From contig CACLZM010000010.1 in NCBI GenBank assembly GCA_902611415.1, positions 1-37,669 of the forward strand: a stretch of 37,669 nt of DNA, read 5' to 3'. Under the pieces are notes generated by a model. That model worked only from the letters and a program-made list of their open reading frames with translations, was not told the DNA's origin and ran no database searches. Origin of the DNA: an uncultured Alphaproteobacteria bacterium (lineage in GTDB: Bacteria > Pseudomonadota > Alphaproteobacteria > HIMB59). Below are positions 1,612 to 3,517 of this stretch, in pieces (the stretch's first letter is position 1; every line of letters starts with the position of its first letter). A program made the position numbers and the translations under genes.

Positions 1612-2154
1612 ATGAAAATCATTTTAATTATATTCGCATTATTTTTGAACATATCCTATAGTTACGCAGATCAAAATAGCCCAAAACTTGATGAATTATT
1701 CAATCAGCTCTCCGAGGTAAAGGACTCAAAAGAACAAAGTCTAATTATATCAAAAATATGGGGAGAATGGATGAAAATTGAAAATCCAGATGTAAAAATA
1801 GTAATGGATAATATTTCAGATTTCTTTGAATCTAAAAACTACCAATCTGCGATATCAGCTTTGACTTTTGCTATTGAGTTAGAGCCAAATTATGCGGAGG
1901 CATACAACAAAAGGGCAACTTTTTATTTTATGATGGGAGACTATGAAAACTCTATGAGAGATATTGAAGCTACATTGTATCTTGAACCAAGACATTTTGG
2001 TGCATTAGATGGTTTGAGTAGAATTCTTATAAGCTACAAAAATTATGATGGAGCACTTAAGGTTTATCAAGAAATGAAAAAGTTAATGCCAAATGATTTG
2101 TCTGTTGATATGAAAATTGAAAATCTTAATCAAATGGTGTCAAAGGAAACTTAA
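1612..2154 (+). CDS. Exported tetratricopeptide-repeat protein
   Basis: A 180-residue protein with an N-terminal signal peptide (MKIILIIFALFLNISYSYA). About 110 residues downstream are TPR motifs. One covers roughly residues 72-105 (SAISALTFAIELEPNYAEAYNKRA), the next roughly 106-139 (FYFMMGDYENSMRDIEATL followed by LEPRHFGAL), and a partial one ends in LKVYQEMKKLMPND. The Pro-acidic helix ends (ELEPN, YLEPR) are typical. Such short periplasmic TPR proteins are frequent in Alphaproteobacteria and probably mediate protein contacts. The specific role is unknown. It is followed by 223 bp without a gene that contains the GC-rich block at 2204-2259. Confidence 0.8.
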   Translation: MKIILIIFALFLNISYSYADQNSPKLDELFNQLSEVKDSKEQSLIISKIWGEWMKIENPDVKIVMDNISDFFESKNYQSAISALTFAIELEPNYAEAYNKRATFYFMMGDYENSMRDIEATLYLEPRHFGALDGLSRILISYKNYDGALKVYQEMKKLMPNDLSVDMKIENLNQMVSKET

Positions 2155-2203
2155 ATTAATCAATTTGTAAAGAAAATAGATTAACGAAATAATGAAATTT
2201 ATT

Positions 2204-2259
2204 GCCCCTTGCCACCTTCCTCCTCGACAATGTCTCAACCCAAGCGGCTAGGGGACAGG
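2204..2259. ncRNA. Candidate structured RNA (riboswitch, leader or sRNA; type not recognised)
   Basis: This block has 35 G/C in 56 bases, in a spacer that is otherwise almost pure A/T. Positions 2205-2213 (CCCCTTGCC) pair with 2246-2254 (GGCTAGGGG), giving eight pairs and one mismatch. Inside the loop is GACAATGTC (2225-2233), which can fold into a 3-bp hairpin. On the plus strand the remaining loop is C/U-rich (ACCTTCCTCCTC) and complementary to Shine-Dalgarno sequences. On the minus strand it contains AGGAGG. As a plus-strand element it would lie 118 nt before the start codon of the sulfur amino acid operon, fitting a leader riboswitch or an anti-SD small RNA. A minus-strand sRNA is also possible. 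I compared it by eye with SAM, SAH, guanidine, glycine, cobalamin and SRP RNA consensus features and found no match. The strand is undecided. Confidence 0.5.
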
Positions 2260-2364
2260 TATAATATTCGAATTTTGGTTGATATGAAACAGATTTCTTA
2301 TAATTTAAAAAGCCTATCAAATAAGAAAAATATCGTTAAAGATGTTATTTAAAAATTAATTAGT

Positions 2365-2377: not shown

Positions 2378-3517
2378 GTGAAAAAAAAATTTAATACAAA
2401 AGTAATTCATTCTGGGCATGGCCCAGATAAAGAAACGGGAGCTGTTATGCCACCAATACATCTTTCATCAACCTTCAAACAAATGGAACCTGGAAATTTC
2501 GAGTATGAATATGCTAGAACCAAAAATCCTTCTAGAGATATATTAGAAAATTTACTGGCACAAATCGAGTCTGGAGATAAAGCTTTTGCATTTGCATCTG
2601 GCATGTCAGCAATAAATACAGTTTGTGACCTATTTGGCACAAACTACCATATAGTTTGTTCCGATGATGTATATGGGGGTACTCGTAGGTTATTCGATAA
2701 AGTTAAATCAAACATTGACGTAACTTACATCGACTTTGATAAAAATATAAACTGGAATGATGAAATAAAAGAAAACACAAAATTTATATGGATTGAAACA
2801 CCTTCAAATCCTTTAATGAAAATTATTGATATTAAAAACACTGTTAATATTGCAAGTGAGTTTAAATTACCTGTGATTTGTGACAACACATTTGCCTCTC
2901 CATTTAATCAGAGACCACTTGAATTAGGTGCAGATATGGTAGTGAGTTCTTCAACAAAATATTTAGGAGGCCACTCAGATATTGTTGGCGGGTCTATTGT
3001 TATTAAAGAGAATAAGAAGTACGCTGAAAAAATTTCTTTTATTCAAAATGCAGTTGGGGCTGTCCCCTCTCCCTTTGATTGTTATTTATTAACAAGAAGC
3101 ATTAAAACACTCTCTGTAAGAATGAAGCAACATAATGAAAATGCTATTGCTGTGTCTAATTATTTATCCAATCATCCTAAGATAGAAAAAGTTTTTTTTC
3201 CGGGTACTGATAAAAGGCACAAGGAAATTGCAGAAAAACAAATGGATGGTTTTGGTGGAATGATGTCTTTTGTAATTGACTCAGATATTAATGGTGTAAA
3301 AACTTTTCTAAAAAATTTAAATTTATTTACACTCGCGGAAAGCCTAGGAGGAGTCGAAAGTTTGATCGAGCATCCAGCCATCATGACCCATGCTTCTATA
3401 GATCCAATAATTAGAGAAAAATTAGGCATATCAGAAACATTGCTAAGAATATCTGTGGGTATTGAAGATGTAGATGATTTGATCTCAGATTTAGACCAAG
3501 CCCTATCAAAGATTTAA
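2378..3517 (+). CDS. metB: Cystathionine gamma-lyase / gamma-synthase family PLP enzyme
   Basis: A 379-residue Cys/Met metabolism PLP-dependent enzyme of normal length. The family features are the N-terminal HSGHGPDKETGAVMPPIHLSSTF, a substrate/phosphate-contacting YEYARTKNPSR (43-53), GDKAFAFASGMSAI (66-79) and DVYGGTRRLF. The PLP lysine is K194 in SSSTKYLGGHSD. The C-terminal signature is ESLGGVESLIEHPAIMTHAS. Such proteins either cleave cystathionine to cysteine or make it from an acylated homoserine, and sequence alone does not separate them. The next gene is a CysK/CBS-type enzyme 1 bp downstream, so a reverse transsulfuration pair (homocysteine to cysteine) is the likeliest reading. The start is GTG, the first plausible codon for the conserved N-terminus, with no Shine-Dalgarno site. 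Confidence 0.85.
   Translation: MKKKFNTKVIHSGHGPDKETGAVMPPIHLSSTFKQMEPGNFEYEYARTKNPSRDILENLLAQIESGDKAFAFASGMSAINTVCDLFGTNYHIVCSDDVYGGTRRLFDKVKSNIDVTYIDFDKNINWNDEIKENTKFIWIETPSNPLMKIIDIKNTVNIASEFKLPVICDNTFASPFNQRPLELGADMVVSSSTKYLGGHSDIVGGSIVIKENKKYAEKISFIQNAVGAVPSPFDCYLLTRSIKTLSVRMKQHNENAIAVSNYLSNHPKIEKVFFPGTDKRHKEIAEKQMDGFGGMMSFVIDSDINGVKTFLKNLNLFTLAESLGGVESLIEHPAIMTHASIDPIIREKLGISETLLRISVGIEDVDDLISDLDQALSKI

Follow-up and report, generated by a model that had tools for sequence, protein, structure and literature searches.

The window, i.e. the whole stretch of 37,669 nucleotides of an uncultured Alphaproteobacteria bacterium of the HIMB59 lineage that was analysed here, contains an A/T-rich spacer (2155-2377) between a gene for a TPR-repeat protein and a gene for a cystathionine gamma-synthase-like (CGS) PLP protein, both on the plus strand (Table 1; loci compared are given L numbers, genomes G numbers). 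Within this spacer a stretch of 56 nt (2204-2259) was described in an earlier note on this DNA as a G/C-rich element, and the counts agree with this description: 35 of its 56 bases are G or C, compared with 29 of the remaining 167 bases of the spacer. The stretch is the G+C maximum among all 56-nt stretches of the window, and those with at least 33 G/C start at 2201-2206 only. The folding energy is -16.2 kcal/mol for the plus strand and -24.0 kcal/mol for the minus strand, which, when compared with shuffled sequences (z of -0.70 and -1.83, respectively), is alone not beyond chance. It is its conservation, and not its folding energy, that lifts the element above chance.

Table 1. Features at and around the conserved element (window coordinates)
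Feature	Position	Strand	Remarks
TPR-repeat protein gene	1612..2154	+	convergent neighbour; a read-through minus-strand transcript would be antisense to this gene
conserved hairpin RNA	2203..2260	-	covariance-model match, 58 positions
P1 3' strand	2205..2217	-	includes AAGGGG (2205-2210)
loop segment AGGAGGA	2218..2224	-	L022-L024: one base fewer directly after AGGAGG
P2 3' strand (GUC)	2226..2228	-	
P2 5' strand (GAC)	2232..2234	-	
conserved 5'-side loop segment, GGGUUGA in the window	2235..2241	-	
P1 5' strand	2242..2254	-	
-10-like box TATTAT, possible minus-strand promoter	2261..2266	-	
-35-like box TTTCAT	2284..2289	-	17 nt from the -10 box (by eye)
cystathionine gamma-synthase-like PLP gene	2378..3517	+	next plus-strand gene; not downstream of the RNA

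Indeed, when homologous spacers are aligned as the note had proposed, a core of about 50 nt turns out to be near-invariant across the 39 loci compared, the window included (39 of the 41 main-lineage loci; G005 and G011 were left out of this neighbourhood table). L034 agrees with the window at 50 of 50 positions of the core, 55 of 60 of the promoter side, 26 of 46 of the 3' flank and 59 of 125 four-fold sites of the CGS gene. The core of L024 agrees with that of the window at 44 of 50 positions and that of L025 at 44 of 53, ungapped counts being too low for L022, L024 and L025 because of indels. The neighbouring genes vary: at L021:2135-2884 and at the same place in L022-L024, a plus-strand gene for a TauE/SafE-family permease (Pfam assignment made on L021) lies divergent from the element, and this gene is not present in the spacer of the window.

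The stem was claimed as 2205-2213/2246-2254, and its eight pairs and one T-T mismatch exist on the plus strand as described; it is, however, part of a longer stem which is better paired on the minus strand. In detail, P1 comprises 13 positions with one A-A mismatch in the window and would close a conserved purine-rich internal loop (GGGUUGA / AGGAGGA) together with the 3-bp hairpin P2. In the 13 distinct rows of the alignment, 197 of 207 stem cells are paired on the minus strand, 36 of them by G-U, compared with 161 of 207 and no G-U for the plus-strand complement of the same rows; the rows are not independent, as seven of them share nearly the same core, and the structure counted had been chosen on the minus strand. 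Two stem positions are invariably G-U / U-G on the minus strand in the 12 close rows, which makes them A-C on the plus strand. Mismatches occur at pair 12-64 in seven of the 13 rows; pairs 11-65 and 10-66 are not formed in two rows and one row, respectively. Taken together, the pairing of the stem favours the minus strand. The covariation check suggested in the note gave modest support to it. Within the 12 close rows covariation is not above the shuffle control, which reached it in 264 of 500 cases. When the diverged copy of G015 is added, both sides change in three pairs (matched by 3 of 500 shuffles), and 1 of 500 shuffles attains the covariation score; this signal depends on that single diverged row, whose alignment was made by the model itself, and the shuffles ignore relatedness. 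The element might in principle act as DNA, as a protein binding site or part of a divergent promoter, and being short, highly conserved and close to promoter-like boxes it has features expected of such a signal; a DNA palindrome would, however, favour neither strand, whereas the G-U pairs all fall on the minus strand (for a structure chosen there), and we regard this explanation as very unlikely.

Twelve distinct minus-strand sequences were used to build the covariance model. At E up to 0.1 it matched 42 of the 162 genomes of the order, each of them a member of the genus of the window (42 of its 52 genomes), with the diverged copy (28 bits) in G015 and the main lineage in the other 41. At E up to 1 a DNA search of 100 relatives matched 55 genomes, many of them by short chance matches, and the strong matches again fall in this genus. 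Among the ten genus genomes without a match, six have no CGS match at E 1e-60 (G038, G002, G034, G017, G006, G036), two have a contig end at that place (G019, G043) and two carry CGS in another neighbourhood (G013, G024); a more sensitive search of these ten, in which G036 gave the best E (0.77), revealed no convincing copy. Both the RNA and a close CGS gene are missing from G017, and as this assembly is 94% complete, the absence may be real. Outside the genus no copy was found in the 162 genomes of the order or in 385 genomes of the class, the latter drawn evenly and searched with strict filters; this search returned four genus genomes and G454, where the match is antisense to a Pal-lipoprotein-like ORF (by eye) and was taken as chance. 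Weak second matches in G007 and G001 lie inside a 530-aa ORF and were treated in the same way. In blastn searches eight phage records matched parts of the spacer outside the element only and plasmids gave no match, and an exact pattern search of viral contigs gave none either. We consider it most likely that the RNA represents a new family, of a known kind, which is restricted to one clade (the HIMB59 clade).

Promoter-like boxes precede the stem on the minus strand. The promoter scan reported two sites, compared with a chance mean of 1.4, one on the minus strand and one on the plus strand at 2165-2193; its own -35 match on the minus strand, TTCATA, has a spacer of 16. L021-L024 and both window-side clades also have a -10-like box that precedes the stem by 6-7 nt (by eye), as TATTAT, TATCAT, TAGTAT or TAATAT with TTTCAT or TTTCC upstream (by eye), and L025 and L026 show no clear boxes and are merely A/T-rich there. 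Transcription from the boxes at 2289-2261 would begin at the foot of P1 or a few bases away from it, and the position of the -10-like box would put the 5' end of the RNA near 2252-2257.

Intrinsic terminators were not found on either strand of 2150-2400. In the window and in the other loci of the same layout, the TPR gene lies antisense downstream of the RNA. At such orphan loci the RNA is directed into the 3' end of the TPR gene, with a DUF4864 gene beyond on the minus strand, which together with the terminator result would be consistent with the RNA being the stabilising 5' hairpin of a longer transcript antisense to TPR and perhaps reaching DUF4864. The distance between RNA and TPR, however, is not constant, being about 50 nt or less at one extreme and more than 1 kb, with an oxidase gene in between, at the other, the conservation of the loop exceeds the apparent need of a plain 5' hairpin, and a T-run closely follows the stem in L025 and L026, so that this antisense explanation seems unlikely to us.

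The earlier note had proposed a new sulfur-metabolite riboswitch upstream of a cysteine operon, or a small RNA blocking ribosome sites. The plus-strand loop indeed holds the anti-Shine-Dalgarno-like CCTTCCTCCTC, the minus strand reading AGGAGG, and the -10-like TATAAA at 2365-2370 is present. A leader of the plus-strand cysteine operon is contradicted by the RNA lying on the opposite strand and pointing away, and by the permease gene which intervenes in L021-L024. A plus-strand anti-Shine-Dalgarno sRNA fares no better, as two stem positions are broken in 12 of 12 close rows and the changes in relatives also break plus-strand pairing. More generally, a plus-strand element of any of these kinds, or a small ORF (2231-2352), could draw on the stem claimed on this strand, the promoter-like plus site and the ATG of the ORF, which is kept in 33 of 39 loci; the fold is weaker on this strand, however, L021-L026 lack the ATG, and most of L027-L036 have an inserted base that shifts the frame. 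We therefore consider the plus strand to be a most improbable source of the signal. The preference of the note for a free sRNA over a leader of the cysteine genes is supported as the more likely of the two.

In some relatives the RNA is followed by a gene on its own strand. In L021-L023 a minus-strand gene for an FMN-dependent alpha-hydroxy-acid oxidase begins 7-9 nt after the AGGGG of the stem, and in L071 (G015) the diverged RNA lies about 14 nt before the ATG of an oxidase homologue; in all four the AGGGG is placed as a possible Shine-Dalgarno sequence of the oxidase. The start in L022, where the frame is open upstream through the RNA, was set by likeness to L021 and L023. The family was scored on the L021 protein alone (Pfam FMN_dh, E 1e-114), whose closest solved chain is an L-lactate oxidase (E 7e-106), with glycolate oxidase at E 2.5e-87. 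The homologue in G015 (L071:161-1229) is split into two overlapping frames, which is either a sequencing error or a broken gene. A minus-strand upstream ORF or leader peptide was also considered and dropped: the GTG of the stem shares the frame of the oxidase ATG in L022 but not in L021, and meets a stop in L023.

A search of the 52 genomes for the oxidase gave matches in 36 at E 1e-20. A close oxidase (59-100% identity) was found in six of them (G026, G037, G009, G013, G024, G015); the remaining matches, with 31-44% identity, were treated as paralogues, orthology being assigned by identity and not by a tree. The RNA precedes the oxidase in four of these six genomes, while G013 and G024 have the close oxidase but no detectable RNA. 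Most of the 41 main-lineage genomes with the RNA are without the close oxidase, and the assembly of the window (81% complete) has no oxidase match at E 1e-20. In the class, no close oxidase was found at E 1e-90 in 289 genomes, a draw without a known holder and hence weak evidence of absence. That most genomes with the RNA lack the oxidase points to an independent role of this RNA.

The oxidase gene is flanked by genes for TPR, DUF4864 and EamA in G024, by TPR and DUF4864 in L021 (EamA is not within the L021 stretch), by DUF4864 in G013 and by DUF4864 and EamA in G015. As the outgroup oxidases keep the DUF4864 neighbour, and that of G024 TPR and EamA too, the oxidase looks ancestral to the block, with G013, G015 and G024 taken as outgroup on account of a long branch and the root not resolved. 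In the CGS tree, the oxidase-less G030 is placed in the starred clade with the oxidase-bearing G037 and G009, separate from the 33-row clade of the window; the bootstrap of this tree is not settled, nor are the placements of L021, L025 and L026. Both observations together suggest that an ancestral oxidase would have been lost at least twice. The CGS neighbourhood of the outgroup differs from that of the window: in L075, L077 and L078 (G013, G024 and G015) a cystathionine-synthase/cysteine-synthase pair lies behind a serine-acetyltransferase-like gene (by eye).

The statement that the element does not resemble known riboswitches agrees with Rfam 15, in which it has no family match. In the window there are no matches at gathering score; 2100-2400 gives five matches at E 1 to 9.4, all far below gathering scores, and at E up to 1 none lies over the RNA in L021, L024, L025 or L071. 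Eight genomes, including G000 and G030 and two that are about 80% complete (that of the window and G026), were searched for partner proteins and housekeeping RNAs. Hfq was found in none of the eight (the control matches 5 of 14 known genomes, including Caulobacter) and CsrA in none (control 3 of 14), so that neither an Hfq-dependent sRNA nor one sponging CsrA/RsmA through GGA motifs describes the RNA; a free RNA in these bacteria would thus need another mode of action. 6S RNA (RF00013) was not detected in the eight genomes at E 0.001, and the RNA is far shorter than the 187 positions of this model. SRP RNA (RF00169) has no match in the window, and a separate SRP RNA is present in all eight genomes. 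The layout of a structured leader, with a gene following in the same direction, is found in L021-L023 and L071, and neither in the window nor in the loci that share its TPR arrangement. The idea of a 16S rRNA fragment, which arose from GGAGGAAGGUGG, presumably similar to a segment of 16S rRNA, was dropped as the variants of L022-L026 differ at this sequence.

Conservation, a pairing that favours the minus strand and the position upstream of the oxidase in four of six genomes are observed directly. The explanation we prefer, giving it an even chance, is that of a promoter-proximal structured RNA of the minus strand, which began as or doubles as a leader of the oxidase and persists as a free small RNA. 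In the oxidase-bearing genomes it would be the 5' leader, in which P1 may hide the AGGGG Shine-Dalgarno sequence, and elsewhere it would be kept as a trans-acting free RNA that works by base pairing or protein binding via its G-rich loop. The order could also be reversed, with a free RNA gene existing first and later being placed before the oxidase. Alternatively, the RNA could be a purely cis-acting metabolite riboswitch or translational leader of the oxidase, and a functionless, slowly decaying relic in the genomes without it. The leader position with AGGGG within the stem in four genomes and the compact stem with a conserved asymmetric loop would suit such a leader; a relic should decay, yet the orphan copies L001 and L034 share 50 of 50 core positions where the next gene retains 59 of 125 four-fold sites, and we think this improbable. 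Starting again from the preferred free RNA, a bolder and rather doubtful proposal is that an oxidase leader, perhaps sensing hydroxy acids, survived the loss of its gene on at least two occasions and developed into an indispensable free regulator with no Hfq detected, i.e. that a cis-to-trans conversion took place across about forty genomes. If true, the RNA (about 50 nt, some forty genomes) would show cleanly, in nature, how a leader is converted into a free regulator, and would offer an aptamer candidate that is small, tractable and linked to hydroxy-acid oxidation.

Trans-acting sRNAs derived from riboswitches are known from Listeria (SreA/SreB, Rli55). The RNA resembles them as a leader-type RNA occurring as a free RNA, with trans action here only proposed, and differs in that the downstream gene is missing in most genomes. 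Anti-Shine-Dalgarno sRNAs of alphaproteobacteria carry CCUCCUCCC loops. They share the pyrimidine-rich, anti-SD-like loop with the plus strand of the element, whereas the better-supported strand carries the SD-like AGGAGGA.

The SAM-V and SAM-II riboswitches of Pelagibacter are short structured spacer RNAs, and SAM-V is reported to act by hiding the ribosome site [PMC2704228, PMC5069961]. The RNA is similar to both in being short, structured and located in a spacer of a streamlined, A+T-rich marine alphaproteobacterium, and to SAM-V in the ribosome-site hiding proposed for the oxidase leader; it differs from them in having no Rfam match, no methionine genes behind it and mostly no downstream gene, and any ligand would be putative. 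In addition, a candidate separately transcribed RNA near SAR11_0636 is described as a three-stem junction [PMC2704228]. It, too, is structured and conserved in a marine alphaproteobacterium while its neighbours vary, and it is set apart from ours by this description. In the accessible parts of the literature searched (including PMC2704228, PMC5069961 and PMC5069720), a description of the RNA was not found by searches which could not target its sequence.

Two minor features of the flanks were observed. In L036 and, more degraded, in L029 a look-alike of the 5' part of tRNA-Leu lies between the RNA and the TPR gene (by eye); ARAGORN finds no tRNA in L036, and the look-alike is perhaps the relic of an insertion. 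Just past the TPR stop, at 2155-2180 of the window and at the same place in L002-L020, some relatives have the palindrome TTAACCAATTGGTTAA, whose halves partly change together (L003 reads TTAATCAATAGATTAA) and which may perhaps serve as a weak TPR terminator.
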